64,000 nt of DNA from a virus, in IMG/VR virus record IMGVR_UViG_3300021963_000060, positions 1 through 64,000 of that record, one strand, 5' to 3'. The translations under genes and the position numbers were made by a program. Below the pieces are notes generated by a model. It searched no databases. It saw only the letters and a list, made by a program, of their open reading frames with translations, and was not told where the DNA came from. Every line of letters starts with the position of its first letter. Positions within the stretch are counted from its first letter, which is position 1. Below, piece after piece: positions 11,318-31,957 of the stretch.

Positions 11318-12496
11318 TTATTTTTTCTTATACTTATTTATGAAATTCTTTATTTTCTTTGTTCCGGTCATTTTCATAGCATACTCTCTATAAGAGTCTG
11401 TTCCAACTTCTCTTTCTTTTGCAGGAACTCCAGATACTTCTGTCCATTCGGAAACATCTTTGATCCATGGTTTAAACATAATATTATTTTCAGTAACACA
11501 TATTAAATAATTCGCTCCTCGACGAATAATTTTTCCAACTAATCCAGTATTTAAATTTTCAACAAACTCACCAACTTTGTATATTTCATTTCTAACATAT
11601 AACTCACGAAGTCCTTCAATATCTTCCTTAGGACATATTTCCCACAGATTCCATCCTTCCTCAATTTTCATCGACTTTCGGATAGTTAAAAATAATTTTC
11701 TTGCCTCTTTATCATCAAGTGTTTTAGGTGTTCCCTTTCTAAAAGTTTCAAAATCATTTTCAGCGGCTGCTTTACGCATTTTTGAAGCGGACATCCCACT
11801 CACATCATCAGCATCAGGATCTCTTTCTCCAGCAGAAACTACATTTAATTCAGCAAAGTCATAAAGATCTCCATTATACTTATTAGCTAGCTTTTCAAAT
11901 TCTGCTTGACGATCTGATCCAACAACAATATTAACTCCACTGTATCCATCCGCATGTGCTTGTTTTAATACATCAAAGATTGTTCTTGAATTTGCATCAT
12001 TAACAATTCTTTCACCATGCTTTGGATACATCTGACGCATCACAGATATTTTAGTATCAGGATCTAAAGGATTTTTCTTAGGATCATTAGATCTTGAAGG
12101 ATATATTTTATACTCTCCTCCCTTTCCTGCTACATTTGCAACAGTATCCAACAACTTCTCATGTCCAGTTGTTGGTGGATTAAATCTACCAAAAGCAATC
12201 GTCAAAACACCTTTATCTTCTGGTTGCGTTTCTTGCTCTGGTTCTTGTTGTGTTGGTTGAACTTGCGTCGCAACTGGTTGTTGATTTGCAACCGTTCTTT
12301 GTTGGGGAGGATCTTGCTCACCTGTGACTTGATTTTGATTATAAAACTTTAGTTTTCCACCGACAGTTTTAGCTGTAAATTCTCCATTTTTATCATACCA
12401 ACCACCATGACCATCTCCAGTCAAGCCAAGCCTTTTCGCTTGCATAACTGCCTGCGAATCTCTTACCTCAGATAAAAATCGTGAAAAACTTTTCAT
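11318..12496 (-). CDS. Cytidylyltransferase/NMN-adenylyltransferase-like protein with capsid-targeting-like N-terminus
   Basis: 392 residues. Residues 1-11 (MKSFSRFLSEV) resemble the T4 internal-protein capsid-targeting peptide, including an L-x-E site after residue 10. A Gln/Pro linker (about 60-93) leads to a nucleotidyltransferase core: AFGRFNPPTTGHEKL with the T/H-x-G-H motif at 109-112, and SGMSASKMR (233-241), equivalent to the ISSTxxR motif. Such enzymes join a nucleotide to a phosphorylated substrate (NMN, pantetheine phosphate or glycerol phosphate); the substrate here is unknown. A C-terminal beta module (about 290-350) follows. AATAAATA at 12516-12523 may be its late promoter. Confidence 0.75.
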   Translation of the reverse strand: MKSFSRFLSEVRDSQAVMQAKRLGLTGDGHGGWYDKNGEFTAKTVGGKLKFYNQNQVTGEQDPPQQRTVANQQPVATQVQPTQQEPEQETQPEDKGVLTIAFGRFNPPTTGHEKLLDTVANVAGKGGEYKIYPSRSNDPKKNPLDPDTKISVMRQMYPKHGERIVNDANSRTIFDVLKQAHADGYSGVNIVVGSDRQAEFEKLANKYNGDLYDFAELNVVSAGERDPDADDVSGMSASKMRKAAAENDFETFRKGTPKTLDDKEARKLFLTIRKSMKIEEGWNLWEICPKEDIEGLRELYVRNEIYKVGEFVENLNTGLVGKIIRRGANYLICVTENNIMFKPWIKDVSEWTEVSGVPAKEREVGTDSYREYAMKMTGTKKIKNFINKYKKK

Positions 12497-12525
12497 ATGT
12501 ATCTTGATATACTTATATTTATTGA

Positions 12526-14043
12526 TTAAAATAATCTTGGATCAATTCCTAATGCCCCATATCCAAGTGTAGAAGCAGTGTTCTTACTCCTCAGACTCAT
12601 CCAATTTTTTCTCTTAGTAAAAGTATCCCAATTATACATACCTATTGTTTCAAAATAGATTTTTACATTGTTACCCACTTTCACATCTTTTGCGGTTGAA
12701 TAAATTACTTGCTTTTCATATATTGCTTTATCATAAAACATTTTTATAAAGTTCATCTCCCCATTTTTTCTAGAAGCATATTCAAATATCTTTTCACACA
12801 AAAAGGAAAGAGCCGTCACATTTGTTTTTGCTTGACTTTGACTTTTTGTATTTTTTAAAATCGTATTAGTTAAATAATTTTTAATTTGTATATCATCAAT
12901 GTTGGATCCCTGTCGCAAAGATCTAACATTTAATTTTTTTATATAATCATATAAGTATTCAGTTTCTTTTCTTAACGGTTTACCATTGATTTCTCTAACA
13001 CCATAAGAACGTAAAAAGTTTTCAGCTAAATTTACAAAATCAGATTTGCTAAATTTTTTAACAGATTCTAATGGATATATGTTTGAAGTTTTTCCTGCAG
13101 ATGCTGGTAAAGATACCCCTCCCCAAAAAGTTTTTGTTTGATAAGATTGTGACCTATTATTTTTATACCAATCAGTCAATTCTTTAGTAGTTTCAAATAA
13201 ATTTTTTGGAGTTATAGTATTTGGTGTTTTTCCCTTAAAAGCATTTTTTACTGATACTTTTATTCGTTGATCATCTCTAGCACCAGGAAAATAAAGATAA
13301 TAATCAACTAATGGTAGATTCTGTTGTCTAGGGAATAAAATATACCACCCATCTTTCTTGTTCGTTTCTATTCCTAATTTTTTTCTCAGTTGAGTTTTTC
13401 TTGTTAACTCGTGCGCTAAAGAATATGCAGAAAATATTTCCAAAGATTCGCTTCCAAAGTCAATCATAGAAACATGTTGAGAAACTGTTGTTTTCTTCAA
13501 ATCATCAAAATAAGAATCAAATAAAGGCACCAAATCAGGTTCAACTGAATTAACATACTTTACAGTCAATTCTCTCAATTTTTCTGGTGTTAGTTTATTC
13601 TCAACCAACCCAGGAATTGATGCGGGTCTTATCTGAAAACTTTTTTCTGCTGAAGATTTTGGTTTTAAAGTTAAAATATAAGTAGGAGATCCTTTGGTCC
13701 ACAAAGTTTCTTCATCTAAAGAATTTGCTTTGATTTTATCAAAATCTTGGTCAGATATCCCAATCACAAATCCAATTTCACTGGACATTGTTATTTGTCT
13801 ATATCTATACTTATATCTAAAACTTTTATCAGAATTTATATAAAAAAATCTATATCCAGGAACATTAATAGATTTTGATATTTTTTCTAGTTCTATTCTT
13901 CTAATTGCTCTTGTGCTGGGACCTCCAATAACATAGATAAATTTATTAGTCCCACCTTTTGCAGTTACTTGGTCATATTCAGTTACTATCTCATATCCAG
14001 GAGACAGGCAACCATTAATAGTTGATACTATACTTGCCGACAT
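12526..14043 (-). CDS. 505-residue orphan protein, possible nuclease fold
   Basis: Not recognised. It is soluble, rich in Lys, Tyr and Phe, with no membrane segment. One stretch, VDYYLYFPGARDDQRIKVSV followed by KNAFKGKTPNT, resembles an Asp...S-x-K arrangement seen in divergent PD-(D/E)xK nucleases, but this is weak. It lies between tRNA-Ala and the nucleotidyltransferase gene and is AT-richer than its neighbours, suggesting an acquired gene. Alternative: a structural protein, given the neighbouring virion genes. Confidence 0.6.
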   Translation of the reverse strand: MSASIVSTINGCLSPGYEIVTEYDQVTAKGGTNKFIYVIGGPSTRAIRRIELEKISKSINVPGYRFFYINSDKSFRYKYRYRQITMSSEIGFVIGISDQDFDKIKANSLDEETLWTKGSPTYILTLKPKSSAEKSFQIRPASIPGLVENKLTPEKLRELTVKYVNSVEPDLVPLFDSYFDDLKKTTVSQHVSMIDFGSESLEIFSAYSLAHELTRKTQLRKKLGIETNKKDGWYILFPRQQNLPLVDYYLYFPGARDDQRIKVSVKNAFKGKTPNTITPKNLFETTKELTDWYKNNRSQSYQTKTFWGGVSLPASAGKTSNIYPLESVKKFSKSDFVNLAENFLRSYGVREINGKPLRKETEYLYDYIKKLNVRSLRQGSNIDDIQIKNYLTNTILKNTKSQSQAKTNVTALSFLCEKIFEYASRKNGEMNFIKMFYDKAIYEKQVIYSTAKDVKVGNNVKIYFETIGMYNWDTFTKRKNWMSLRSKNTASTLGYGALGIDPRLF

Positions 14044-14075
14044 AAATGCAAAGCATATTTCAAATATTTAGTTTA

Positions 14076-14148
14076 TGGAGATAAGGAGACTCGAACTCCT
14101 GACATCAGCCTTGCAAAGACCGCGCTCTACCAACTGAGCTATATCCCC
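14076..14148 (-). tRNA. tRNA-Ala (anticodon TGC)
   Basis: A 73-base cloverleaf: acceptor GGGGATA/TATCTCC with one G-T pair, D-arm GCTC/GAGC, anticodon loop TTTGCAA, T-arm AGGAG/CTCCT around TTCGAGT. The anticodon stem CGGTC/GGCTG uses two G-T pairs. Discriminator A is present and no CCA is encoded. It reads GCA (and GCG) codons, which are frequent in the structural genes around it. Confidence 0.95.
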
Positions 14149-14166
14149 AAGTTTGAATATTATAAA

Positions 14167-14192
14167 ACCCCTCAACTAAAAAGTCAAGGGGT
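14167..14192 (-). terminator. Terminator between the 293-residue gene and tRNA
   Basis: An 11-bp stem (ACCCCTTGACT with AGTTGAGGGGT, two wobble pairs) and TTTT loop, then TTTATAAT on the minus strand. Confidence 0.7.
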
Positions 14193-14216
14193 AGAATCAA
14201 CTTCTTAAGTTATTTA

Positions 14217-15098
14217 TCAGAGACCTTTGCCGTGTCTTGTTTTTCCAGAAGAATCAGTATAAGTTTCTTTTTCACGTCTAGGAGTTACATAACCAACACC
14301 AGGGACTGCTCCAGTTTTACCTGCATCTCTAGCGGCATTTCTCGCTGCTGCTCTTTGTGCTGCTCTCTTACGATTTGCATCATATTTTTTGTTATTAGCA
14401 GCAATTCTATCTTCATAAGAACCTTCAAGGATTGCTTGAATATCTTCAACATCTAATTCATTTGCCATCATCCACTCTGCTTCTTCTAGAGTTTCTGCGT
14501 ATCCTTCTACACAAAGAAACTCAAGAACTGTTTCAAAAATATCAAACTCTTCTCTATTGAGTTGCTTTTTCTCTGCAGGAGTTAGAACACCTCTTTGTGC
14601 TCCTCTTGCCGCTTGCTTTGCTTTTACCTTAGGATCATCAGACTTGTGAGCGTAACCATGAAGACCAGGAGATGATGAAGTTGTCTTACGGAAATCACCT
14701 CTCTGTTTTCTAGCAAGATCTTGTCTCTGCTTTGCTTTCTTAGCATCACCGTAAGTTGGTTTATTCTCTAGTTTAGTTGCTCTATCTGCTGCTGCACCAC
14801 CACCAGTAGACTTAGCAATCTTTTGTCGAATTGCAGTTTCATCATGACCACGCTTGGCCATTGCGGTTGCTTCATCTACATTCTCTTCACCGAGATGAGG
14901 TGCTGCCTTATATCCCTTATGTCCTGCTTTGTAATTTTGATATGCCTTGGTATTTGCCTTCTTATCAGCAGCAGTTACGGTCATTCTAGTATCTTCAGGC
15001 TCTTTCTTTGCCCCACCATAAACTGCTTCATCAATCTCTTGAGAAGCATAAACACCAGAATATGCTTCCATCAAACCTTTGAGTTCTTTGATATCCAT
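14217..15098 (-). CDS. Basic virion structural protein
   Basis: 293 residues, Ala/Lys/Arg-rich and mostly polar. N-terminus MDIKELKGLMEAYSG contains an L-M-E-A site resembling a gp21 prohead-protease cleavage site. The middle is disordered and basic (KKAKQRQDLARKQRGDFRKT). A helical acidic segment (FETVLEFLCVEGYAETLEEAEWMM) is followed by an Arg-rich tail (RKRAAQRAAARNAARDAG). It is preceded by a perfect TATAAATA and followed by a terminator, so it is an independent late gene. A role as an internal or head protein is inferred. Confidence 0.7.
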   Translation of the reverse strand: MDIKELKGLMEAYSGVYASQEIDEAVYGGAKKEPEDTRMTVTAADKKANTKAYQNYKAGHKGYKAAPHLGEENVDEATAMAKRGHDETAIRQKIAKSTGGGAAADRATKLENKPTYGDAKKAKQRQDLARKQRGDFRKTTSSSPGLHGYAHKSDDPKVKAKQAARGAQRGVLTPAEKKQLNREEFDIFETVLEFLCVEGYAETLEEAEWMMANELDVEDIQAILEGSYEDRIAANNKKYDANRKRAAQRAAARNAARDAGKTGAVPGVGYVTPRREKETYTDSSGKTRHGKGL

Positions 15099-15126
15099 TA
15101 GAAAATTTTTTATATTCTTCTAAGGA

Positions 15127-15134
15127 TATTTATA
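15127..15134 (-). promoter_or_regulatory. T4-type late promoter octamer
   Basis: Exact TATAAATA, 28 bases before the ATG at 15098 and directly after the T-tail of the hairpin at 15141-15157. Same terminator-then-late-promoter arrangement as at 8158-8196. Confidence 0.8.
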
Positions 15135-15157
15135 AAAAAAGACCCTTCAAAAGGGTC
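15134..15157 (-). terminator. Terminator after the MazG/helicase transcript
   Basis: A 7-bp stem GACCCTT/AAGGGTC with a 3-base loop, then seven Ts on the minus strand. It ends the transcript running through gp41, mazG and the 58-residue gene. Confidence 0.8.
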
Positions 15158-15162
15158 TAAAA

Positions 15163-15339
15163 TCAAACAATTGCTTTTTCTAATTCTCTATCCAATTGAA
15201 TCATTACATCACGAAGTCTGATGATTCTTTCTGGGGCAAATTCTAAACTATATCCATCAGTAGCAGTATCAAGTACTTGAAGAACTTCAAGTGCAGATCT
15301 TACATCTAGTTTGATACTTACCTGCTTTTCTTTACTCAT
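15163..15339 (-). CDS. 58-residue helical protein after mazG
   Basis: MSKEKQVSIKLDVRSALEVLQ... FAPERIIRLRDVMIQLDREL...: two amphipathic helices, no membrane segment. It overlaps the end of mazG by 4 bases, so it is probably co-translated. No family is recognised. Confidence 0.65.
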   Translation of the reverse strand: MSKEKQVSIKLDVRSALEVLQVLDTATDGYSLEFAPERIIRLRDVMIQLDRELEKAIV

Positions 15340-15761
15340 AGGTCACCTTCTACACGATTTTCAGATCGATAAACATCAAAAGATCCTTCTGGATAACGAG
15401 CACTCAGTTTCTCAAAATTCATTTGGAGAACTTCATCAATTGAAGTATCAAGAGCCATACATGCTTGAGCGAGATACCAACAGATATCTCCGAGTTCTCG
15501 TTTTAGATGAAACGCATTCTCATCATTATAAGGTTTTCCCTGAAGAACAATTTTCTTTACAACTTCAGTAAACTCACCACACTCTGCACTCATTCCTAGA
15601 GCAGCAGTTAGTAGACGAGGAACATCAGCATCAGCAGATGTTTCTAGTTCGGTCATACGAGCAAGGAGTTGTGCAAAATCACTACTTGCAGGACTTGTAG
15701 TTTGACGAACAAAATCAATATATTTGTTAGTATCAATTGTCTTATTAAGAGTCATAGTCAT
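15336..15761 (-). CDS. mazG: MazG-family nucleotide pyrophosphohydrolase
   Basis: 141 residues, all-alpha, with the MazG metal-binding residues E60, E63 and E66 (SAECGEFTE) and a second pair in LKRELGD (E89, D92). These enzymes cleave (d)NTPs to (d)NMP and pyrophosphate. Cyanophage MazG has been linked to hydrolysis of dGTP/dCTP, recycling host high-GC DNA nucleotides. It lies in the replication operon. The start is M1 or M3. It is shorter than tandem bacterial MazG, having a single domain. Confidence 0.85.
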   Translation of the reverse strand: MTMTLNKTIDTNKYIDFVRQTTSPASSDFAQLLARMTELETSADADVPRLLTAALGMSAECGEFTEVVKKIVLQGKPYNDENAFHLKRELGDICWYLAQACMALDTSIDEVLQMNFEKLSARYPEGSFDVYRSENRVEGDL

Positions 15762-15985
15762 ACAATAAAAGGTTGAAGTTCAGATTGTGGTAAAATTTGT
15801 TGTGCTGGAAGTTGAAAATCATCATCCAGTCTAATATGAGGCACATTAATTGTTTCTGGATTAATGTGTTTAACTTGACGATAAGTTCTTGTTGAATCAA
15901 ATTCAACTAACATAATAGCATCTCGGATACTTGCACAGTCGGCAATTTTTTTACCTTCTTTATTGAATACCGAGTAATAATTCAA
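15758..15985 (-). CDS. Small protein linking gp41 and mazG
   Basis: 75 residues (MNYYSVFNKEGKKIADCAS..., ending QPFIV), a mixed alpha/beta prediction with a Pro/Gln-rich C-terminus. It overlaps both neighbours by 4 bases, so it is translationally coupled to the helicase and MazG. No domain is recognised. Confidence 0.65.
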   Translation of the reverse strand: MNYYSVFNKEGKKIADCASIRDAIMLVEFDSTRTYRQVKHINPETINVPHIRLDDDFQLPAQQILPQSELQPFIV

Positions 15986-17364
15986 AACTTAAATCCCTCA
16001 AATGATTTTTTTAGTTTGGGTTTTGTTTCTTCTTCATAATCATACTCTTCTTCTTTACCAGAGTCAAGTATGTTGTCTTGTGCTGACTGCTCAACATCAT
16101 ATAGTCTCATCTTAGCCCTATCAATACCAATCACAAATCTCTTATAAACTGTAGGATCATTGTAACGATTCTTAAGTTGCTTAACTAAGATTTGACCAAT
16201 TTCTTCAAGTTCTTCTGTAGAAATAAGTGCAAACATTAAGTCAGCAGTTGCAGGCAAACCAAATGATTCCGAGGTATCAGTTAGTTCTACATCAGAAGAA
16301 CCATAACCAGAACGAGTAGTCTGAGTAGCACTGACGATTGGAACATTAAACTCAACAGCAAGACCACGAAGTTCTTCTGCAATTGCTTTCACAAAAGTAT
16401 AGGAATTAATATTACTATTTCCTTTATACCTTGAAGAAGCACAAATATTCAGATAATCAATAAAAATGATATCGGGTTTAAAAGACTTCTTAAGTGCAAG
16501 TTCATTCAGAAGAGACCTAAAATGTCCTGCATGTGCAGAGGCAGTAGGATACTCTTTAATAATTAAAGTACCTTGAGTCTTCTTTGCAAGATTATTAATC
16601 TTACTCTCGAACATACTCTTAGGTAGATCTCCAATATCTTGGATATTTACGTTCAGTAAGTTTGCGTCAATTCGTTCAGCAATTTTCTCTTCTGCCATCT
16701 CCATTGTAATGTAGAGAACGTTCCGTCCTTGCAACAACACGGAGCTAGCAACGTGGCACATGAATAGAGATTTCCCGACACCTGTACCAGCAAGCGCGAC
16801 GTTAAGAGTCTTGTTAGGTAAACCACCTTTTGTGATTTTGTTAAAGTATTCGAGATCAAATTCAATTTTATCCTCCGTTCTGTGATACGATTCATATCTC
16901 TGTTCATAATCTTGCAAATAATCATGTCCAACATGATTATCAAAACTCACTGCAAGAGCATCTTGCAAAATTGATGGTATAGCATCTCTTGATTGTTTTC
17001 CATTACCATCAGCAAGTTGAATCGATTCCATAAGTGCAATATAAATTGCACGGTCACGACACCACTTTTCTGTAGTATTAATCAACCATTGAAATTCTAC
17101 CGTAATATCTTCAAGGCATTGGATTAGATAAAGAATATCTTTTAGGTTAGATTCATTAAGATCTTTACGGTTTTCAACTTCGATTGAAATAATTTCTTTG
17201 TTGGGAAGTTCATTATACTTTTCAACAAAGTTGGAAATTTCTTCGAATACTACTTTTTGATTTTCATCTTCAAAGTATTCTTTTTTTAAGAATGGAATTA
17301 CCTTTCTAAGGTATTCTTCATTAAATAAGAGGTTTCTAAGGATTAGAAACTCAACTTTCTCCAT
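15982..17364 (-). CDS. 41: Replicative DNA helicase (T4 gp41-like)
   Basis: DnaB-type hexameric 5'-3' helicase that unwinds the fork and activates primase gp61. Walker A is at 193-199 (GTGVGKS) and Walker B is IIFIDYLN near 290. A DnaB-family arginine-finger region follows (KQLKNRYNDPTVYKRF). 460 residues compares with 475 in T4. The acidic C-terminus (KEEEYDYEEE) probably contacts partners. It overlaps the uvsX gene by 14 bases. Confidence 0.94.
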   Translation of the reverse strand: MEKVEFLILRNLLFNEEYLRKVIPFLKKEYFEDENQKVVFEEISNFVEKYNELPNKEIISIEVENRKDLNESNLKDILYLIQCLEDITVEFQWLINTTEKWCRDRAIYIALMESIQLADGNGKQSRDAIPSILQDALAVSFDNHVGHDYLQDYEQRYESYHRTEDKIEFDLEYFNKITKGGLPNKTLNVALAGTGVGKSLFMCHVASSVLLQGRNVLYITMEMAEEKIAERIDANLLNVNIQDIGDLPKSMFESKINNLAKKTQGTLIIKEYPTASAHAGHFRSLLNELALKKSFKPDIIFIDYLNICASSRYKGNSNINSYTFVKAIAEELRGLAVEFNVPIVSATQTTRSGYGSSDVELTDTSESFGLPATADLMFALISTEELEEIGQILVKQLKNRYNDPTVYKRFVIGIDRAKMRLYDVEQSAQDNILDSGKEEEYDYEEETKPKLKKSFEGFKF

Positions 17365-18358
17365 AACTAAATTCCTTACGTGCGATTTCGTCTAGTTGTT
17401 GCATCACTTCTTCAGTGAAATATTCTTCAGGTTCTTTTAGAATCTGCTTTGCATAAATCTTTTTACCATCTATCTCATAACGCCCTGCTACATTCTTCCA
17501 GAGTCCACCAATCTCACCAAGTTCCAGAAGACCATAGTAACGATCAAGGCCGCGCTCATCATAATACAGACGGACTTCAACATCCTTATTCTCCTTACTC
17601 AAACGCGATTTAGCAGTCTTAGCCTTGATAATATTTCCGACCACTTCCGTTCCATCCTTTTCTTTCTTTTTGCTGAGATAAATGATCGAACTTGCTGCGT
17701 ACTTGAGTCCGCTGCCTCCACCCATTTCCTTAGTTGGTACGTAAGCTCCGATAACGTCATAAGTGTGATTAGTAACTATCATTGGGATGTTTGCTTGACC
17801 AAGTTTGAGCGTAAGCATTCTAAATGCTCCTTTCACAAGTTGTGATTTGGTCATATCACGAACTTGCTTATCGTTCAGTGCATCGGTGATTTCTTTTTCG
17901 GTAGAAAGCATTCCTAAAGAGTCTAGCACAAACATGCAAGGCTTGCGCTCACCTTCAGGTTTTTTTAAGTAAAGATCTACCGCCTTGAGCGCCTTTCCAC
18001 GAAACTCTTCGATAGTAACAACATTAACAACAACCAGGCGAGAAGTATCAATTCCACGGGATTCTAGAAGCGATTTAGTAATAGCAGCCTCAGTATCAAA
18101 GTAGAGGCAATAACCATCGGGGTTAGAATCAAGAAAATTCTTAACCACAGCGAGAGAGAAGAAAGTTTTTCCAGTAGAAGACTCTCCAGCAATAGCAGTA
18201 ATCTTGTTCCCAGATACACCACCAAATATGCTACCTGAAACCAGTGCATTAAAAATGTACGAACCTGTATCAACATACTTTTCAGTTTCATCAATATCTG
18301 AGGCAAGTTGTGTGTACTCACCACCAATTTCTTTTACAATATCTTTAAGAAAATCCAT
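17351..18358 (-). CDS. uvsX: UvsX RecA-like recombinase
   Basis: ATP-dependent strand-exchange protein for recombination-dependent replication. From the ATG at 18358 (MDFLKDIVKEIGG) it has 335 residues, with Walker A GESSTGKT at 58-65 and Walker B in PCMFVLDSLG. An RecA loop region (MGGGSGLKYAASS) is also present. The frame continues upstream into the DNA polymerase gene, but those residues are not family-like. No clear ribosome site precedes the chosen ATG. It works with UvsY (37678) and gp46/47. Confidence 0.94.
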   Translation of the reverse strand: MDFLKDIVKEIGGEYTQLASDIDETEKYVDTGSYIFNALVSGSIFGGVSGNKITAIAGESSTGKTFFSLAVVKNFLDSNPDGYCLYFDTEAAITKSLLESRGIDTSRLVVVNVVTIEEFRGKALKAVDLYLKKPEGERKPCMFVLDSLGMLSTEKEITDALNDKQVRDMTKSQLVKGAFRMLTLKLGQANIPMIVTNHTYDVIGAYVPTKEMGGGSGLKYAASSIIYLSKKKEKDGTEVVGNIIKAKTAKSRLSKENKDVEVRLYYDERGLDRYYGLLELGEIGGLWKNVAGRYEIDGKKIYAKQILKEPEEYFTEEVMQQLDEIARKEFSYGES

Positions 18359-18389
18359 AATTTTTTTAATCAATAAAAACAGTATACCA

Positions 18390-21133: not shown

Positions 21134-21138
21134 CTATA

Positions 21139-21626: not shown

Positions 21627-21806
21627 TTATTCTCCACCATCTCCACCACTTCCATCACCAGAATCTCCATTACCACCAGCACTTGAACGACTTCTTACTG
21701 GAACCGCTTTTCCTTTTGAAATACGTTTTTGTTTTCCTTGAGAATATACAGTATGCGGAATTGCATTTTTATATGCAATTTCTTTGAATTCGTCGAAAGA
21801 TTTCAT
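21627..21806 (-). CDS. Small basic protein with capsid-targeting-like N-terminus
   Basis: 59 residues: MKSFDEFKEIAYKNA, then a basic segment (QGKQKRISKGKAVPVRSR) and a Gly/Ser/Asp tail. The first ten residues match the MKSFxxF pattern found on three other proteins here and on T4 internal proteins. It lies between the Hsp20 gene and a terminator. A packaged head peptide is an inference. Confidence 0.6.
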   Translation of the reverse strand: MKSFDEFKEIAYKNAIPHTVYSQGKQKRISKGKAVPVRSRSSAGGNGDSGDGSGGDGGE

Positions 21807-22260: not shown

Positions 22261-22335
22261 TATAGTAGCTCCTTTAAAAGCGAGTTTGTGTTGTATGGAC
22301 CCCGAAGGCATCCATTACTAATTATACAAGAAACG

Positions 22336-22368: not shown

Positions 22369-22419
22369 TTTAGGGTGTTCCGACTTTTGTAGAGACCGCA
22401 CGAAAGGTCTCAGTATTAT

Positions 22420-24561: not shown

Positions 24562-24752
24562 TTTTCATCCACCATACCTAAAAATTCAATGTCTTCAAAT
24601 TGATCTACAGATACTTCATGCTCTCCGCCGACAAGATACCAGTGTTTACCATCATTACGAATACCAAGATATTTCATTTGATCTTCGGCAAAAGTATGCT
24701 CACGCATCAATGCTTGAATACGGTAGTGCATTAATTCACTTCGACTAATCAT
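24558..24752 (-). CDS. 64-residue protein before gp44
   Basis: MISRSELMHYRIQALMREH..., an N-terminal helix followed by a small beta part (KHWYLVGGEHEVSVDQFEDI). No family is recognised. It overlaps gp44 by 4 bases. Confidence 0.65.
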   Translation of the reverse strand: MISRSELMHYRIQALMREHTFAEDQMKYLGIRNDGKHWYLVGGEHEVSVDQFEDIEFLGMVDEK

Positions 24753-25693
24753 TTAAATTCACACTCACACATAATTTCAGTTAATGCTGCTAGAAGGTTA
24801 ATTTCTTGATCAGCCACGAACGCACATTGGTATTGATACTTAGCAATAACAAGAACGGCAGCAGGGATAGATGCGGGAACCAGGCTATCATAAGCGGCGT
24901 CATAAACCCTGCGAAGAAGACTAGAAGCATCGTTATCCAAGTTGGAGACCACCCACTTTCTAACTTCTGAGAAGTTTTTATCCTTAAGATTTTTGATAAG
25001 TTCATTTACATTAATATCAGAAAATGTTGCAAGAATTGCAGAATCAATTTTTCCACCAGAAGAATATCTCTGACATTCATTAAGGACTCGCCTCCAATCA
25101 GGAAAGTGCTTATTGATCAGTTCAATTAGAACTTTTTGATCATACTCAACGTTTTCGATTTGAAGGATTTCAAGGAGGCGATTATAAAACCCAGCGGCAA
25201 GTTGGGCCTTTTCTTTTCCCTTGATCCCAAATTCAATGACTGCACATCTTGAGTGCAGTGGTTCAATGATTTTGTTCTTGTAATTGCAGGTGAGGATGAA
25301 TCTGCAGTTGTTAGCAAATTCCTCAGTAAATGCCCGTAGGAGGAGTTGTACGTCGTTTGTTGTGTTATCTGCCTCATCAATGATGATGACTTTGTGTTTA
25401 GCAGTTGACGAAAGCGATACGGTCGAAGCGAAGTTTTTCGCATTGTTTCGGACAGTATCGAGGAATCTACCCTCGTCGGATCCATTGATGACATAAAAAT
25501 CTACTCCAAGTTCATTGCACAATGCTTTTGCAACTGTAGTTTTTCCAATCCCAGGAGGACCAGAAAGAAGCATGTTAGGAATTTCTCCCCTATTTAGGAA
25601 ATCTTGGAATGTTTTTTTAGTACCTTCGGGAAGGATACATTCTTGAATTGTCTTTGGTCGGTATTTCTCAACCCAAATAAAATCACTATTCAT
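24749..25693 (-). CDS. 44: Sliding-clamp loader ATPase (gp44-like)
   Basis: AAA+ ATPase that, with gp62, opens and loads clamp gp45. It starts at ATG 25693 (MNSDFIWVEKYRPKTIQEC); the longer frame needs a TTG start. Walker A GPPGIGKT is at 45-52, Walker B in VIIIDEAD, and the arginine-finger SRC motif in PLHSRCAVIEF. 314 residues against 319 in T4. Confidence 0.95.
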   Translation of the reverse strand: MNSDFIWVEKYRPKTIQECILPEGTKKTFQDFLNRGEIPNMLLSGPPGIGKTTVAKALCNELGVDFYVINGSDEGRFLDTVRNNAKNFASTVSLSSTAKHKVIIIDEADNTTNDVQLLLRAFTEEFANNCRFILTCNYKNKIIEPLHSRCAVIEFGIKGKEKAQLAAGFYNRLLEILQIENVEYDQKVLIELINKHFPDWRRVLNECQRYSSGGKIDSAILATFSDINVNELIKNLKDKNFSEVRKWVVSNLDNDASSLLRRVYDAAYDSLVPASIPAAVLVIAKYQYQCAFVADQEINLLAALTEIMCECEFK

Positions 25694-25695
25694 AA

Positions 25696-26205
25696 TCAAA
25701 TCCAATCAGGTTTACGTTGGGGCATACGAAGATAATTATCTTTTACCCAAGTCTTAGAAGCAATATACCTTTTATATGCAGTAAAGGTATCAATACTCTC
25801 ATCAAATTTCCACTCTTCAGGCATAGCACGAGCAAATGGTGTTACATCAGTAATTTTACCTTTAGGAAAAAGGTAGTATGCATCAACAAGTGTTTTGTAG
25901 CAAGAATGTTCTTTATTATATCTTACAGTATATTCATCGCATAAGTTCATTCCCCATTTAATCAACCAATAAGCATTGTGTATTGATTCCGCTGCCCACT
26001 TTGTACATGGGTGATTACGAAATGCACCCTTCTCAGTCGCATATGGAGTTCCATCGGACTTGGGAAGGGTGCCGTAGTTATGATACCATTTAGATGCAAC
26101 AATAGAAAGCATTTGACAGCATTCTAGAGGCATCTTAACGATATGTTTATCTGGGAGACAAATAGCACTTTCTGCTGGCCAAGGAGAAGTAACAAAAATA
26201 TTCAT
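25696..26205 (-). CDS. Conserved phage protein with DKH motif, possible DNA glycosylase relative
   Basis: 169 residues starting MNIFVTSPWPAESAICLPDK. The order DKHIVKMPLECCQMLS, NHPCTKWAAESIHNAYWL and LCDEYTVRYNKEH defines a family frequent in phages of cyanobacteria and other marine hosts. The N-terminal DKH and small helical build loosely recall pyrimidine-dimer glycosylase (DenV type), which would suit sunlit-water phages, but I could not confirm this. The ATG at 26205 is preferred over a TTG start 18 bases upstream. Confidence 0.6.
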   Translation of the reverse strand: MNIFVTSPWPAESAICLPDKHIVKMPLECCQMLSIVASKWYHNYGTLPKSDGTPYATEKGAFRNHPCTKWAAESIHNAYWLIKWGMNLCDEYTVRYNKEHSCYKTLVDAYYLFPKGKITDVTPFARAMPEEWKFDESIDTFTAYKRYIASKTWVKDNYLRMPQRKPDWI

Positions 26206-26219
26206 GATATAAAATGAAT

Positions 26220-26366
26220 TCAAATTGGTTGGGGTCCACCCACAATTATAGCAGATGGAACCTGTGCCTGTGCAATCTTTTTAGCCTGGGATTGACTGCT
26301 AGCATCAACAACCATTTCTAGATACCTATTGTCCCCAGGCAATTTATATTTTACTGAATACTTCAT
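26220..26366 (-). CDS. 48-residue protein between clamp and glycosylase-like gene
   Basis: MKYSVKYKLPGDNRYLEMVVDASSQ... PSAIIVGGPQPI. A small beta-alpha-beta unit with regular hydrophobic spacing. Its ATG overlaps the end of gp45, indicating coupled translation. No function is recognised. Confidence 0.65.
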   Translation of the reverse strand: MKYSVKYKLPGDNRYLEMVVDASSQSQAKKIAQAQVPSAIIVGGPQPI

Positions 26367-27028
26367 CCAAAAGTAGAATCGGGTTCTAGAGCAATATGAT
26401 AAATCAGATCATAATCAGTATGACTGAATTTAGATAGTAGTTTCTTAGAAATAACTACCTCATATGAACCAGGAAGAATCTTGATATTTTCTACCTTGAA
26501 GTTGAAAACAAACTCAGAGTCAGTCTCACCAACAACAATAGAAAAGTCGTTTGAAGTGTCGTTCTTTTTGTCACGAACAACAAGTTTAACTACTCCATTT
26601 TCACCAACAGCAGAAAGATCTGGAAGTTGACCAACAGCAGATGCCTTCAGAAGTTTATCTAGTTGCTGAGTACTGAGTTCGAAACAAACATCTTCACTTG
26701 GAAGAACAATATCTTTTTCTGGAGGGACAACAATTACATTAGGATCAGCAAAGAAATATTTTGATCGATTTTTACCTTCTTTGATGACCACATAATTATC
26801 ATTCTCAAAGTCCAACTCAGCAGGTTGGTAAAGAGCAAGAAAATTAAGGAATTGGTTCAGGTCATAGATACCAAAATCTTTTGTGAAATCTTCAGTAATT
26901 TTTGCTTCTGCTAGAATGTTTTTCATAACAGAAATTGTCCTAAGAGTATTTCCTTCCTTAAAAAGAATTGATTGATTGATGGAAGAAAAATTCTTTAGGA
27001 GGTTGAGAGTTTTATCAGATAGTTTCAT
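26363..27028 (-). CDS. 45: DNA polymerase sliding clamp (gp45-like)
   Basis: 221 residues of alternating beta-sheet with two-domain clamp character (MKLSDKTLNLLKNFSSINQ, VMKNILAEAKITEDFTKDFG, FELSTQQLDKLLKASAVGQ). It forms a trimeric ring that tethers gp43 and, in T4, also activates late transcription with gp55. Length equals T4 gp45 (228) within a few residues. It lies next to the clamp-loader genes, as expected. Confidence 0.93.
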   Translation of the reverse strand: MKLSDKTLNLLKNFSSINQSILFKEGNTLRTISVMKNILAEAKITEDFTKDFGIYDLNQFLNFLALYQPAELDFENDNYVVIKEGKNRSKYFFADPNVIVVPPEKDIVLPSEDVCFELSTQQLDKLLKASAVGQLPDLSAVGENGVVKLVVRDKKNDTSNDFSIVVGETDSEFVFNFKVENIKILPGSYEVVISKKLLSKFSHTDYDLIYHIALEPDSTFG

Positions 27029-27033
27029 AATAA

Positions 27034-27489
27034 TCAGCGAAAGAATTCAGAAAGGCCATTGTCTTTGCGAGTATAGTGCCCGTCAAAGTGTAGTAGAAGC
27101 ATAGCATAGTGAATAACTTTTAGGAGGTCACGCTTATTGCGACCATCCTTATCACCATACCGACTACCATATTTTAGGATATTTGCTTGACAGAAACCAG
27201 GGGCAAGATCCTTTGCCGCCATAAGATCAATTGTTTGAATATCTTTGTGGTCTTGATTATGACCACAATAGTGACTTCCATAGGTACTAGTCACATAATC
27301 CTGAATATCTTTCAGGATTTTATCTTCATTATATTTCCAAAGATGGTTCTTTGTTTCATTCATAATCGATGAGGTCACTGGAGTTTTTTTAATTTCAATT
27401 TGATCATTAGAGTTCAAAGAAAATACATAACTGTCTAATAGGTTAGGCGTTGATTTGAAATCATTATCAGAATAAGGATACTCGTCCAT
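27034..27489 (-). CDS. DUF3310-like protein
   Basis: 151 residues. The C-terminal part has the family pattern HYCGHNQDHKDIQTIDLM, FCQANILKYGSRYG, then NKRDLLKVIHYAMLL. DUF3310 proteins are common in phages and sometimes labelled nucleotide kinase-like, without firm evidence. The N-terminal about 60 residues are not recognised. It lies between the clamp and CobS-like genes. Confidence 0.65.
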   Translation of the reverse strand: MDEYPYSDNDFKSTPNLLDSYVFSLNSNDQIEIKKTPVTSSIMNETKNHLWKYNEDKILKDIQDYVTSTYGSHYCGHNQDHKDIQTIDLMAAKDLAPGFCQANILKYGSRYGDKDGRNKRDLLKVIHYAMLLLHFDGHYTRKDNGLSEFFR

Positions 27490-27521
27490 AATAAAAAGAA
27501 GATATGTCTTTTGTTATTTTA

Positions 27522-28649
27522 TCAGAAAGGAGTAGGTTGGTCAATATTGGGGTTGTAGTCAACCTGCTCAGTAGGCATTTGGAAGTCAGCATCTACTTTA
27601 TCATACAGTTCCAGGAATGCTTGCTTGGTTTCGTCATCAAAACGATTCACACAAACTTGAATTGCCTTTGCCTTATCTTGGAAAATGCTGTAAGCACGGA
27701 TGATATGAACGAGTCGGCGGGTGCTGATGATTTCCTCAATCCCACCATCATAGAACGTTTTACGAATGATATCTGCCCAGTCAACCAGGCGCTTGCAGAA
27801 GTTGCGGTCTTCCACCTGCAGATCCAGCGCAACGCCTTCTAGGATCTTCTGCTCGGTACTGGGAGCGGGATAGGACTGCTCAAAGGTCACAGGGAAACGT
27901 TCAAGGAATGCTTCGTTGAGAACATTAGTACCGATAAAGCGGCCATCGTCAGAACCCTTACCCTTAGTGTTAGCGGTAGCGATAACATTGAAACCTGCGG
28001 TAGGTTTCACGAAACGACCAATCTTTTTAAGAAAGACGCCTTTACCTTCTAGGATGGATTGCAGACATAGAATTTTGTTAGAAGCAAGGTCAATCTCATC
28101 CAACAAAAGAACAGCACCACGCTCAAGTGCTTCTACAACAGGACCATTATGCCAAACAGTTTCACCGTTCACAAGGCGGAAACCACCAATTAGATCATCC
28201 TCATCAGTTTCGATCGTAATGTTTACACGAATTAGTTCACGCTTAAGTTGAGCACACGCCTGCTCAACAGAGAACGTTTTACCGTTACCCGAAAGACCCG
28301 TAATGAACGCAGGATAAAAAATACGGGACTGAATAATACGTTTAATATCTTTAAAGTTACCAAACTGGACGAAGGTATCATCTTTATCAGGAATTAGATT
28401 TTGTTCCACAGCAGGAAGAACTGAAGGAGCTTGATATGAACGTTCGATCTCTTCTACTCGTTCACGAGTGATCTCCATATTCCAACGACCACGACCAACT
28501 TTAAATTGTTCCAGTCGCTTAGTTACAGTTGGATAGGAAATACTTTTAGAAGCACAATAACCACGAACATCAGCAGCAGTAAATTCTGTACCGAAAGTAT
28601 TTTTGAGATCAATAAGAATTTGGTCGTCGGTCATTTTAAGGCGAGACAT
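27522..28649 (-). CDS. cobS: CobS-like MoxR-type AAA+ ATPase
   Basis: 375 residues. A small N-terminal helical domain (1-60, ADVRGYCASKSISYPTVTKR) is followed by an AAA+ core: Walker A GLSGNGKT (118-125), Walker B VLLLDEIDLA (about 186-195), sensor 1 NVIATANT, arginine finger in LNEAFLERFPV. Cyanophages carry this gene as cobS, named for the cobalt-chelatase subunit. No CobN is in the window, whereas a VWA partner lies 0.8 kb downstream, the usual MoxR-VWA pairing. Remodelling of a host or phage complex is therefore at least as likely as cobalamin synthesis. Confidence 0.88.
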   Translation of the reverse strand: MSRLKMTDDQILIDLKNTFGTEFTAADVRGYCASKSISYPTVTKRLEQFKVGRGRWNMEITRERVEEIERSYQAPSVLPAVEQNLIPDKDDTFVQFGNFKDIKRIIQSRIFYPAFITGLSGNGKTFSVEQACAQLKRELIRVNITIETDEDDLIGGFRLVNGETVWHNGPVVEALERGAVLLLDEIDLASNKILCLQSILEGKGVFLKKIGRFVKPTAGFNVIATANTKGKGSDDGRFIGTNVLNEAFLERFPVTFEQSYPAPSTEQKILEGVALDLQVEDRNFCKRLVDWADIIRKTFYDGGIEEIISTRRLVHIIRAYSIFQDKAKAIQVCVNRFDDETKQAFLELYDKVDADFQMPTEQVDYNPNIDQPTPF

Positions 28650-28715
28650 GAATGGGTCATTTGTTTCAACAGAGTCATTATAAGGGAAAAAAGGTCTTGG
28701 TTTCCCACCGAGTGG

Positions 28716-28901
28716 TCAGTTCGCCAACTGGTTGCGCCACTTATTCAAATATTCTTCAGTTACAATTTTTGCAGTGTATCCTGGGTAATACTTATTCACT
28801 AATGAAGAAAGTCCCATAGCAGTGATACTGCTATTACATTTAATCCAAACTTCTTTACTATCATATTTTATAATGTGGTCAAATGGAAATTTAGTCTTCA
28901 T
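28716..28901 (-). CDS. 61-residue protein upstream of the CobS-like gene
   Basis: MKTKFPFDHIIKYDSKEVWIK..., ending WRNQLAN: a compact alpha/beta sequence with no known domain. It lies between the basic DUF5872-like gene and cobS, same strand. The 66-base interval after it contains TATAAT (28677-28682) without a good -35. Confidence 0.6.
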   Translation of the reverse strand: MKTKFPFDHIIKYDSKEVWIKCNSSITAMGLSSLVNKYYPGYTAKIVTEEYLNKWRNQLAN

Positions 28902-28904
28902 AAT

Positions 28905-29441
28905 TTACTTTTTCTTTTTGGATTTGTTCCCCCAGTTTGCTGCACCAACTTTACGGCATTTTGATAATGCTCCAGAAGCATATGCACTTGGCCAAACACT
29001 ATACCTAGATTTTACTTTTTTGTAGCAGGCATCTTTTTCACCTGCCTCTTCCTGAGTCACTATTTTTGCAGCGCCAGATCTATTTGGATTTGGATCTTCT
29101 CTACGCTTCTTAGCGGCTCTCTTATTTCTCTCATCCTTATCCATTGCAGCACGATCGTCTGCGTCTCTACAATAAGGTTTAGTTTTTTGTCCAGGTTGCT
29201 TAGCACAAGGTTTCCCATCATACTTTCCGCCAGCCTGAACCCATCCACCGCCCTTAAACCAATCTCTTAGAGAATATCCAGGATCTTTTGCAGATTTACC
29301 ATCAAGTGCTTCTTCTACTTTTTTTCTTCCAGCACAATGCGCTCTCTGACTGAATCCTTTAGGGTTATTGCAGTCTATTGACTTTTTATATTTTTGAGAC
29401 CAGCTCTCACTAGTCTCCATAAACTCTCTAAAAGATTTCAT
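28905..29441 (-). CDS. Basic DUF5872-like protein with capsid-targeting-like N-terminus
   Basis: 178 residues, strongly basic, six or more Cys. It starts MKSFREFMETSESW, matching the T4 internal-protein pattern. The middle resembles DUF5872-type repeats: GGGWVQAGGKYDGKPCAKQ, GQKTKPYCRDADDRAAM, then KDERNKRAAKKRREDPNP. The C-terminus has CYKKVKSRYSVWPSAYASG and KCRKVGAANWG, a small Cys motif widespread in cyanophage and algal-virus proteins. A CATAAATA late-like octamer (29453-29460) precedes it. A packaged DNA-binding role is inferred. Confidence 0.7.
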   Translation of the reverse strand: MKSFREFMETSESWSQKYKKSIDCNNPKGFSQRAHCAGRKKVEEALDGKSAKDPGYSLRDWFKGGGWVQAGGKYDGKPCAKQPGQKTKPYCRDADDRAAMDKDERNKRAAKKRREDPNPNRSGAAKIVTQEEAGEKDACYKKVKSRYSVWPSAYASGALSKCRKVGAANWGNKSKKKK

Positions 29442-29455
29442 TTTTTTACAAATAT

Positions 29456-31672
29456 TTATGCTACCAAAGAAATAAACTCACCGAGAACTTTTTTATTGAG
29501 TTTTTTGGTTTTCAGAGATTTAGCAAACGCGGATTTAATTTGTGCTTTAGTTGCATGTTCATGAATATCAAACTCAGTATCCTGAGAAAGTGCCGATGAA
29601 GAAAGACCAAAATACGCATCATATCCAGAGTTGGTGATAGTAAAACTCTTTAGTTTCTTCCAGTCACTCTGGATTTTTTCATACTGCTTATCATTATGGG
29701 AGTGATACATCTGAACAAATCGACTCATATTGCGGCCATCAAGAACACGGATACCAATAAAGTTTGTATTGGAAAACTTATCTTTTAGGTTTCTTAGGAG
29801 AAGATCAGTAAACTCATGGTATGCATATCTAAACTGATATGTAGTTCCAAGTTTACGATCACGCAAAAATGTACTCATTGGATTGATATATCCATTTCCA
29901 ATATAAGGTTCTTTCTCCCAGCGACGATGAACCTCTTTATGACATACTAGTTGATTTGCTTCACCATCGGTAAGAACAATACACTGAACTTTTTGCAGTT
30001 TGTTCTCCTTTTGAAACTTTGGAAGAATCTGATGAAGTGCAATCAAAGACTCATTAAGAGGAGTACCAGAAAGACTCATGCGACTAGAATAAGTATAAGG
30101 AGAACTGTAACTCCTACCAAAACAGTAAGCAAGACGCCAAATATTAAGCATCTGATGTTCAAGAATGCTACCAGAAACTTTACTAGTAAGAATGTTCATC
30201 ATAGAGAAAGTCTCATCAACAACTAGAAGACCATCCTTCTTTTGATAATGGGGGGTACGGTCTGCAGCAAGATATCGATCATTTTCATAATCATACTCAC
30301 CACGCCGCCATTCATTAGTAAAAGCATAAACTTCAAAAGGAATAGAGACCTTCTTACAGAACCAAATAAGGTTGAAGAGTTGCTTACAAGTATCAAGCAT
30401 CACTTCGGCCATGGAACCACTCCAGTCCAGAACAAATACCAGACCATGATTTTTACCATCAGGAATCACAGATACTTTTTTGAACAGATCTTCATTGTAT
30501 TTGTAAGTGTGAAGACGGGCAGTATCAAGAACTCCTGTACGAGCAGTAGATGCACGAGAGTATTGATCTGCTGCTTTGCGACATTCAAATTCTTTTACCA
30601 AATAGTTAACTTCTTTCTGAGCAGAAGACTTGAACTTTCTATACTCAAGGTCAGACTCCTCATAAAGATTTACTGCTCCATATCCTTTATCTTTAGCATG
30701 TTCATTATGAATTTTCTGTTGATGGGCAAATGAATCATCAATATCTTTATGGACATTGAAATTTTTCCCAATTACAGTTTCAAGATTTACCTGAGGAATT
30801 TCGAGATAAACATTATCATAACTATCATTACCCACAAGATCTCGAATCTTATCTTCAAGAGATTCTGCAGTACGAACCTCAGGATCTTTATCTGATTCTT
30901 GTGATTTTACGGTAGTGTCTTCACCTTGAGCATTACCAGTTTCCCCATTATCATTTTGTGGTTGAGAGTTATCACTATCACCATCTTGTTCAGAAGATGA
31001 ATCATTACTTTCTACAATCTCATTTGATTGAGATTGTGATTGAGAATTTCCTGGAGTTTCATGAGAATCTAGATCAGCAACCTTTTGTTGCTTCTCCTTT
31101 TCTTTCTTACAATATTTGTAAAGTTCCTCAGCAGCAATTAGTGCATCTGCGAAACTTTCACATGCACCAATCATATTAATAATTTCTTTTTCCTCAGAAG
31201 AGAAATCCAGAGTAATAAAGTTACCAATCTTGAAATATAGATTGGCTCGGTCAGCAAGATTGAATGTAGAAATATCCTCTTCTTCGAGTTGGAAGAAATC
31301 TTCTTCGTTCAGTTCTTTGTAACCATTGAAGAAAGTCTTAGCAAGACCAGCATACTTACGCTTCATCAGTTTCTCAATGCGAGCATCTTCAACTACATTC
31401 ACAAACTGTGCTGGGATCTTATATTTTTTCAACCAATCCTCATCTGGGGTAAACAAAGCATGACCCACCTCATGACCCACCAGAAGGTCATATACGAGAC
31501 TGCTTGCCTTTTCCCACATAGGAAGCGTAAGAACACGGGTATGAACGTTAAAGCAAGCAGTAGGAACTTTCTTATGCTCTACCACAAGATCCTCAGTGGC
31601 TAGAAGTTTAGCGAGTTGAGATTTAATTTCGTGACGGACGGCCATTGGGTTTGTTTCGTATGAAGACATCAT
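29456..31672 (-). CDS. Metallopeptidase-VWA protein, CobT-like partner of the AAA+ ATPase
   Basis: 738 residues. The N-terminal domain has a zincin motif HEVGH (67-71), followed 23 residues on by VVEDARIE, a candidate third ligand. An acidic low-complexity linker (about 200-270, SQSQSQSNEIVESNDSSSE) separates it from a C-terminal von Willebrand A domain with a complete MIDAS DWSGSM (416-421) and downstream LTDGEAN. This architecture matches CobT/VWA proteins that pair with MoxR/CobS ATPases. Partner ATPase at 27522-28649. The start follows a short terminator-like hairpin. Confidence 0.85.
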   Translation of the reverse strand: MMSSYETNPMAVRHEIKSQLAKLLATEDLVVEHKKVPTACFNVHTRVLTLPMWEKASSLVYDLLVGHEVGHALFTPDEDWLKKYKIPAQFVNVVEDARIEKLMKRKYAGLAKTFFNGYKELNEEDFFQLEEEDISTFNLADRANLYFKIGNFITLDFSSEEKEIINMIGACESFADALIAAEELYKYCKKEKEKQQKVADLDSHETPGNSQSQSQSNEIVESNDSSSEQDGDSDNSQPQNDNGETGNAQGEDTTVKSQESDKDPEVRTAESLEDKIRDLVGNDSYDNVYLEIPQVNLETVIGKNFNVHKDIDDSFAHQQKIHNEHAKDKGYGAVNLYEESDLEYRKFKSSAQKEVNYLVKEFECRKAADQYSRASTARTGVLDTARLHTYKYNEDLFKKVSVIPDGKNHGLVFVLDWSGSMAEVMLDTCKQLFNLIWFCKKVSIPFEVYAFTNEWRRGEYDYENDRYLAADRTPHYQKKDGLLVVDETFSMMNILTSKVSGSILEHQMLNIWRLAYCFGRSYSSPYTYSSRMSLSGTPLNESLIALHQILPKFQKENKLQKVQCIVLTDGEANQLVCHKEVHRRWEKEPYIGNGYINPMSTFLRDRKLGTTYQFRYAYHEFTDLLLRNLKDKFSNTNFIGIRVLDGRNMSRFVQMYHSHNDKQYEKIQSDWKKLKSFTITNSGYDAYFGLSSSALSQDTEFDIHEHATKAQIKSAFAKSLKTKKLNKKVLGEFISLVA

Positions 31673-31674
31673 AC

Positions 31675-31699
31675 AAAAAAAGGAGGCATTTCAACCTCC
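31675..31699 (-). terminator. Short terminator just before the VWA gene
   Basis: GGAGG/CCTCC stem (5 bp, 8-base loop) with a seven-T tail, ending two bases before the ATG at 31672. Similar to the arrangement at 1388-1413; weak stem, so possibly partial. Confidence 0.5.
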
Positions 31700-31726
31700 G
31701 AATAGACAGTTTAAAAAGTGTCCTGG

Positions 31727-31957
31727 TCAATCTTTGGTTGCCCTAGCAAAATCTTCTACACCCTTTCTAAATTTTTCTTCCTTGTCGGATAGATCATTAA
31801 AACGTTTTCTAGCAAGTTGAGCGGTTCTTTGTGCTTTCACATCAGTTGTTGCACTACGTTGCTGAAGATCTTTAAGTCTATCACCAAAATCTTTTACGCG
31901 ATTTTCATTTATATTATTTGCAGTCTCTATAAATTCGTTAAAGGTTTTATATTTCAT
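31727..31957 (-). CDS. Small basic helical protein with capsid-targeting-like N-terminus
   Basis: 76 residues. MKYKTFNEFIETANN resembles the MKTYQEFIAEA start of T4 internal proteins. The rest is a basic, Arg/Lys/Asp-rich helix (RLKDLQQRSATTDVKAQR, ARKRFNDLSDKEEKFRKG). A perfect TATAAATA lies 20 bases upstream of the ATG, so it is a late gene on its own promoter, ending at the hairpin 31675-31699. Confidence 0.7.
   Translation of the reverse strand: MKYKTFNEFIETANNINENRVKDFGDRLKDLQQRSATTDVKAQRTAQLARKRFNDLSDKEEKFRKGVEDFARATKD

Follow-up and report, generated by a model that had tools for sequence, protein, structure and literature searches.

The 64-kb window analysed here, taken from the 99.5-kb IMG/VR record IMGVR_UViG_3300021963_000060 of a T4-like cyanophage, encodes a predicted nucleotidyltransferase (window positions 11318-12496), whose residues 1 to 10-11 very probably act as a T4-type capsid-targeting sequence (CTS) that directs the enzyme into the phage head, where it would be cut by the gp21-type protease and from where it would be delivered with the DNA. 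This reading is carried by the sequence itself, its pattern of conservation, a link to published virion detection and the T4-like context. Judged by its sequence, the protein has the features of T4-type CTS-bearing internal proteins: aromatic residues at positions 4 and 7 (F4, F7), a gp21 site of the type L/I-x-E at positions 8-10 (L8-S9-E10), and a gp21 protease and gp22 core that are both encoded by the phage.

A first-pass annotation of this DNA had reported four similar N-termini, read them as candidate cleavable T4-type tags and added an L-M-E-A site on a fifth protein. All five open reading frames (ORFs) were present on the minus strand, and their translations bore out the N-termini MKSFSRFLSEV (11318-12496), MKSFDEFKEIA (21627-21806), MKSFREFMETS (28905-29441) and MKYKTFNEFIETA (31727-31957). 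We scored N-termini by a position profile over residues 2-11 with a threshold of 5, which was trained on 205 N-termini from IMG/VR contigs; the weights of K2, F4 and F7 were set by the search patterns, while E10 was left free in 94 of the training sequences. The four N-termini scored 21.7 (11318), 6.9 (21627), 16.4 (28905) and 15.6 (31727), compared to −6.4 for the next best among the 71 genes of the window. A score of at least 5 was reached only at these four among 1,104 possible starts in the window (ORFs of at least 40 amino acids), at none of 381 possible starts in the 35.5 kb of the record outside the window, and, when three cyanophage genomes were added to the whole record, at 14 genes among 15,854 possible starts. 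A strict DNA pattern (K2, F4, F7, any residue at 8, E10) matched once in the window and never in 100 shuffles. The four N-termini are thus real and far from chance, but they differ in kind: the gp21 consensus L/I-x-E occurs in the T4 register in only one of them, and the window contains only one protein with a complete tag. The proposed cleavage site therefore holds for 11318-12496, and the idea that all four are cleavable tags was rejected because the other three lack a site in the T4 register.

The conservation of the nucleotidyltransferase tag was analysed in the best 80 relatives, the number also used for the other queries except p31727, which had six (the proteins are named here by their first window position); 52 of the 80 entered a 53-row alignment. 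The starts of relatives were assigned by rule, which is unreliable for p28905, since many of its matches start within longer proteins. The first-pass annotation had stated that non-conserved N-termini in orthologues would speak against its proposal; instead, K2, F7 and E10 proved invariant in all 80 relatives. Position 4 is F in 78 and L in 2; at position 8, L (68), I (8) and F (4) occur, and at position 11 A (51), S (24), N (3), V (1) and T (1), whereas positions 5, 6 and 9 vary in the 53-row alignment. Because codons 2, 4, 7, 8 and 10 differ synonymously among the relatives, selection acts on the protein, and a signal at the DNA level was rejected. In the CTS of the T4 internal protein IPIII, targeting depends mainly on residues 4 and 7 and processing on residues 8 and 10, an aspartate at position 10 stops processing with targeting still possible, and T4 propeptides are 10-19 residues long (PMC9026906; this and the other papers are cited for their accessible sections). 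The conserved residues of the nucleotidyltransferase coincide with these targeting and processing residues.

The head genes of the phage resemble those of Synechococcus phage S-SCSM1, with 79% DNA identity between the gp23 genes. Because the homology of the gp21-type protease to that of S-SCSM1 begins at residue 21, its true start is probably at MKLIREEIEK; the ORF as listed overlaps the adjacent one (42136-42194). The gp22-type scaffold shows the highest density of [LI]xE[AGS] sites among the 22 window proteins counted. By analogy with T4, aromatic residues 4 and 7 would dock the precursor in the prohead core around the gp22-type scaffold, and the gp21-type protease encoded by the phage would cut past L8-x-E10 as the head matures and free the enzyme inside it. 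After injection with the DNA, the enzyme could then be active before any phage gene is expressed.

Homologues of the tagged enzyme have been detected by mass spectrometry in the virions of three cyanophages, namely ORF91 of S-SCSM1 (NMNAT, N-terminus MKSFLQFLKEA; PMC9602691), the cytidylyltransferase ORF154 among the 52 virion proteins in Table 3 of the S-CREM2 study (PMC10665884), and the cytidylyltransferase S-SZBM1_140 in Table 1 of the S-SZBM1 study (PMC9146016; N-terminus MRFRQFIIEA). In S-CREM2, profile scores of at least 5 were found for 5 of the 52 virion-detected proteins vs. none of the 167 undetected ones (p 6.5e-4): the cytidylyltransferase (MKNFSSFLTEA), an APH/ChoK-like kinase (MKRFDAFLTEE), a SAM hydrolase (MKDFDSFLEEF), gp136 (MQTFSMFFSED) and gp13 (MKDLHSFLTEQ). 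Pooling the three proteomes gave 6 of 130 detected vs. 3 of 589 other proteins (p 0.0016), a result carried mostly by S-CREM2, and 7 vs. 3 (p 4e-4) if an upstream start is taken for S-SZBM1_140. A strict regular expression yielded 3/52 vs. 0/167 in S-CREM2 (p 0.013) and no link in S-SCSM1 alone (1/48 vs. 1/234), and a relaxed one yielded 7/130 vs. 4/589 in the pooled set (p 9.5e-4); these expressions were shaped partly after S-CREM2 had been seen, and the profile test is the cleaner one. For S-SZBM1, all ORF starts were scanned and matched by hand to the annotated genes, and the counts refer to the 30 proteins of Table 1, while the text of section 3.4 names six more as detected (PMC9146016); for S-SCSM1, we used the 48 coding sequences marked as virion proteins in the record, vs. 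45 in the paper. A kinase of S-CRM01, whose presence in virions is reported by PMC10665884, starts with MISFDQFLSE (profile score 12.1), and its body is just 32% identical to that of the S-CREM2 kinase.

Several observations weigh against a packaging tag. Residue 11 of the window protein is a valine, as in just one of the 80 relatives. S-SCSM1 alone gives no link between tag and detection (1/48 vs. 1/234), and strong tags occur on S-SCSM1 ORF30, S-SZBM1_191 and S-SZBM1_192, yet these proteins are unreported in virions, the latter two being absent from the main text of PMC9146016. From its annotated start, the tag of S-SZBM1_140 is one residue short, and the threshold is reached only via an upstream TTG start. 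A pattern scan of the T4 genome gave no match to the third internal protein, IPI, and in the first 50 kb of T4 one of two starts scoring at least 5 was an unannotated ORF that we counted as false, the other being gene 61.1. The authors of two virion proteomes caution that detected enzymes may be contaminants (PMC9602691; PMC10665884), and the accessible sections of PMC9602691, PMC10665884 and PMC9146016 report neither a cut N-terminus nor injection.

These points leave room for other explanations, of which we regard as the least unlikely that the tag recruits the protein for assembly, as a part of the prohead core that is consumed or retained, rather than for injection as an effector. The T4 core proteins gp22 and gp67 are likewise cut by gp21, and both the 14217 protein and the gp22-type scaffold of the window are rich in cleavage sites; the nucleotidyltransferase, however, has conserved catalytic motifs and contains only one further [LI]xE[AGS] site (IEE↓G, residue 280; ↓, candidate cut), which makes it unlike a protein to be shredded. 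It seems improbable that virion preparations contain the enzyme simply because much of it is present late in infection, and that its N-terminus works in the cytoplasm, for example by binding a partner. The warnings about contamination and the few unique peptides, three in S-CREM2 (PMC10665884) and two in S-SZBM1 (PMC9146016), would agree with this, but the protein was detected in three phages by separate studies, and unrelated tagged S-CREM2 proteins were also detected, with no undetected one at the threshold.

We give still less credit to the explanation that the motif, rather than signalling packaging, is common to these genes because it serves translation initiation or expression, or because recombination has spread it as a linker along with gene starts. 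It is located at gene starts, and a Shine-Dalgarno-like sequence precedes 50 of 124 tagged vs. 19 of 120 control loci among the matches listed from IMG/VR, a difference that may only reflect real genes; on the other hand, its codons vary synonymously, the constraint falls on the residues named by T4 mutagenesis, virion proteins are enriched in tagged ones, and an A or S after the glutamate appeared unprompted in our searches.

The latter result came from pattern scans of IMG/VR, which are samples of the matches listed and not censuses; the counts given here for these scans refer to those matches. With residue 10 left free, 81 of 99 matches (ORFs of at least 40 amino acids or open at the contig end) had E at this position, 50 of them with A, S or G at position 11. 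With E10 fixed, A or S followed in 63 of 119 matches, vs. 16 of 103 in a control with the pattern shifted by one codon (p 3e-9). The cleavage site thus emerges from the searches without having been asked for. The tagged loci contained homologues of 36 T4-like core proteins at a density of 20.6 per 100 kb vs. 3.9 in controls, with at least one core gene in 73 of 120 tagged vs. 23 of 120 control loci. Because the 229-kb genome of S-SCSM1 holds 36 core genes, or about 16 per 100 kb, most tagged loci probably derive from T4-like phages. The presence of gp23 in whole records (4 of 50 tagged vs. 4 of 50 control) was dropped as an argument and core-gene density used instead, because whole records differ in size.

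Behind the tag, 111 proteins of at least 45 amino acids fell into 44 clusters without detectable similarity between their bodies (single-linkage blastp, E 1e-4, without low-complexity filtering), although distant relationships may go unseen among the short singletons, and the largest cluster, with 31 members, visibly merges different mosaics. Pfam assigned 17 cytidylyltransferase-like domains, 8 DUF6267, 4 adenylate kinases, 4 zeta toxins and 2 RimK, as well as single matches to SAM lyase, HicA, DnaJ, SET, GNAT, HAD acid phosphatase and WYL_2; 25 of the 33 families were listed, and a single protein can carry several overlapping matches. Across the T4 genome as a whole, the pattern matched only ipII, ipIII and gene 61.1 (NC_000866.4, 18966-19130, minus strand), which codes for a hypothetical protein of 54 amino acids with a full CTS (MKTFKEFIKED, profile score 21.9).

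The tag would be a portable address of T4-like phages, fronting many dissimilar cargo proteins, and we think it likely that T4 and marine cyanophages alike use one conserved N-terminal code to fill T4-like heads with a large hidden arsenal, to which the T4 61.1 protein would also belong. Possible examples are the nucleotidyltransferases, kinases, RimK ATP-grasp proteins and other types identified by Pfam, and, in S-CREM2, the virion-detected SAM hydrolase and kinase as well as a Cas9-like protein whose tag is displaced. If this is true, injected proteins would be predictable straight from sequence, with a genome alone being sufficient. Few of the proteins which marine phages deliver in the first minute of infection are known, as virion proteomics covers few isolates and, according to its authors, does not separate cargo from contamination; the tag would unite the scattered reports of cyanophage virion enzymes (NMNAT-like, kinase, SAM hydrolase) as one mechanism and point to proteins of an abundant virus group that may counter defences or take over the host early in infection.

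The closest known system is that of the T4 internal proteins IPI, IPII and IPIII (MKTYQEFIAE↓A in ipII and ipIII), which agrees with the window protein in residues 2, 4, 7, 8 and 10 by position and nature, in the gp21-type protease and head core, and in having dissimilar bodies behind one tag. It differs in that the cargo of the window is a large multi-domain enzyme instead of a small restriction inhibitor, with F instead of Y at position 4 and V instead of A after the cut. T4 Alt, a packaged and injected ADP-ribosyltransferase, is comparable in that the window protein, too, is an enzyme that would travel in the head and act at once, but it belongs to another enzyme class. The virion NMNAT/cytidylyltransferases of S-SCSM1, S-CREM2 and S-SZBM1 are homologous and all carry the tag, which is unnamed in the accessible sections of the respective papers, whereas the window phage is an uncultured IMG/VR record. 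A T4 review proposes that the tag may be a general route for T4-like phages to load varied proteins (PMC9026906). The T4 tag is already in print, as is the finding of NMNAT-like proteins in virions, while the literature searched, limited to freely accessible papers (the original proteomes of S-CRM01, S-TIM5 and S-CBWM1 require a subscription), contained no link of the tag to cyanophage cargo; there, the terms 'capsid targeting sequence' and 'cyanophage' co-occurred only in PMC9026906, the latter in the reference list.

The identity of the enzyme, as proposed by the first-pass annotation, is borne out by the PF01467 match, the conserved motif GRFNPPTTGH and the predicted fold. Residues 97-275 are modelled as a nucleotidylyl transferase fold with a predicted local distance difference test score (pLDDT) above 85 over most of the domain (whole-model mean, 74.6), and the best solved Foldseek matches were PPAT and NadD (prob 1.00), while a sequence search of solved structures returned one chain only (E 0.93). 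The fold and the (H/T)xGH motif place the protein in the nucleotidylyl transferase superfamily, and a second motif, SASKMR, is also conserved among the relatives. It shares the fold and the TxGH and SxSKxR motifs with CoaD/PPAT and NadD, but at about 15% identity and with an extra N-terminal tag, module and C-terminal part. Because Foldseek ranks PPAT and NadD alike, the label NMNAT exceeds the evidence. As phage NAD pathways have been described (PMC9503650; PMC12774641), one idea is that the delivered enzyme may restore NAD after its depletion by a host defence. The complete conserved tag, the virion-detected relatives in three cyanophages and the phage's own gp21, gp22 and gp23 support its proposed role as a candidate for head packaging. 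In S-SKS1 (L011:11998-13175), whose record is without annotation at this place, the tagged nucleotidyltransferase gene matches as two pieces.

Between tag and enzyme domain lies a second module, which blastp also found in the Cas9-like protein (gp12) and the kinase (gp14) of S-CREM2. This module of about 36 residues (..GLxxDGHGxWYDxxGxFxAKT..) is shared by several tagged cargo proteins whose functions differ. In the virion-detected gp12 (L007:7704-10313, minus strand), it follows a tag-like FASFMAE↓A at residues 19-26, which itself stands after an SRWxxW stretch, and the relatives in S-N03 and S-CRM01 (L707:8243 and L706:8422, both plus strand) have the same layout.

Coordinates of the features discussed, given as window positions (↓, candidate gp21 cut).
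Feature	Position	Strand	Evidence or remark
CTS-tagged nucleotidyltransferase, predicted adenylyltransferase fold, 392 aa	11318..12496	-	PF01467 E 3e-6; phrog_395; model and Foldseek
Putative capsid-targeting sequence MKSFSRFLSE↓V, predicted cut after E10	12464..12496	-	80 relatives; 53-row alignment
Second N-terminal module, residues 17-52 (..AKRLGLTGDGHGGWYDKNGEFTAKT..)	12341..12448	-	blastp E 8e-6, 1e-4; conservation 0.84
gp21-type prohead protease	41487..42194	-	80% to S-SCSM1 prohead protease, alignment from residue 21
gp22-type scaffold (core)	40197..41423	-	PF25623 E 1e-74; 8 [LI]xE[AGS] sites
gp23-type major capsid protein	38740..40143	-	candidate gp21 site LTE↓S at residue 57
N-terminus MKSFDEF (F4, F7), no gp21 site	21627..21806	-	80 relatives
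Partial tag MKSFREFMETS on mosaic module	28905..29441	-	S-CREM2 gp160 63%; S-SCSM1 ORF29
Partial tag MKYKTFNEFIETA, two residues longer, I-N-E↓N at 16-18	31727..31957	-	6 relatives
Homologue of S-SCSM1 virion protein ORF89	14217..15098	-	L-M-E↓A near the N-terminus; [LI]xE[AG] at three more sites
Gene between 14217 and the nucleotidyltransferase	12526..14043	-	same place as virion-detected S-SCSM1 ORF90; position only
918-aa mosaic protein	8550..11306	-	virion-detected S-SCSM1 ORF92, 34% over 187 columns, E 9e-15; 5 [LI]xE[AGS]
Homologue of virion-detected S-SCSM1 ORF95	7305..8120	-	phrog_613 head protein match

The other three tag-like N-termini were not supported as cleavable T4-type tags in the form originally proposed. 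In p21627, the start MK[ST][FY]xEF is kept in all 80 relatives, but L/I-x-E is found in the first 20 residues of none of them and nowhere in the window protein; by eye, it resembles short, fully tagged proteins (L049, L089, L113). A tblastn search of the phages collection returned no match to p21627 or p31727. The protein p28905 has M8-E9-T10 at the position of the site and no L/I-x-E anywhere. Its module occurs behind many different N-termini, including those of the virion-detected S-CREM2 gp160 and S-SCSM1 ORF29, and 4 of its 80 relatives have a tag-like start as assigned by rule, with a full site in two of them (L400 and L401, beginning with MKSFAEFIDES) and without one in L357 and L358. 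In p31727, I-E-T directly follows the aromatic pair in place of a gp21 site. Since the protein has I-N-E↓N at residues 16-18, it could be cut slightly later than in the T4 register, with N as an unusual residue at P1'; this site is kept together with the N-terminus in four of the six relatives, whereas in the remaining two the N-terminus differs and I-I-E↓S stands at 12-14. Because a T4 tag blocked in processing still targets, it is possible by analogy that all three proteins are packaged in the head. They keep the docking residues, and if they are packaged, two of them would remain uncut, whereas in p31727 the cut might fall a few residues downstream.

The L-M-E-A site noted on 14217-15098 is real and belongs to a protein with a virion-detected homologue, but the tag is of another type. 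Its N-terminus, MDIKELKGLMEAYSG, lacks aromatic residues at positions 4 and 7, and a T4-type tag was rejected at a profile score of −9.5. The N-terminus could be aligned in 33 of its 80 relatives, of which 29 carry [LIM]xE[ASG] nearby. A second N-terminal type (MDxKELxGLMEAYxxVY and variants; relatives L619-L698), with L-x-E↓A at residues 9-12, stands before differing bodies.

Together with its neighbours, 14217-15098 probably forms a head-cargo block with this different type of N-terminal site. The window genes starting at 7305, 8550, 11318, 12526 and 14217 correspond to the block ORF89-95 of S-SCSM1, whose record marks all of these ORFs except ORF94 as virion proteins. Homology to this block was found for 7305, 8550 (partial), 11318 and 14217, but not for 12526, which gave no blastp match at 1e-3.

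Some minor observations concern other tagged or neighbouring genes. A tagged family of about 105 amino acids (MKSFKQFISESVNIAGDFNGNLYINS; L014, L026, L028 and others) is frequent among the tagged matches listed, and its members in S-SCSM1 (44215-44535) and S-SZBM1 (122311-122628) are unreported in both virion proteomes. Two similar repeat-unit proteins, which we take to be RCC1-like, are encoded near the structural genes of the window (56669-57856 and 62181-63371). One IMG/VR locus (L067:3736-4529) carries two tagged genes in tandem, the first of which shows by eye a YHGT motif, presumably as in ADP-ribosyltransferase-like proteins.

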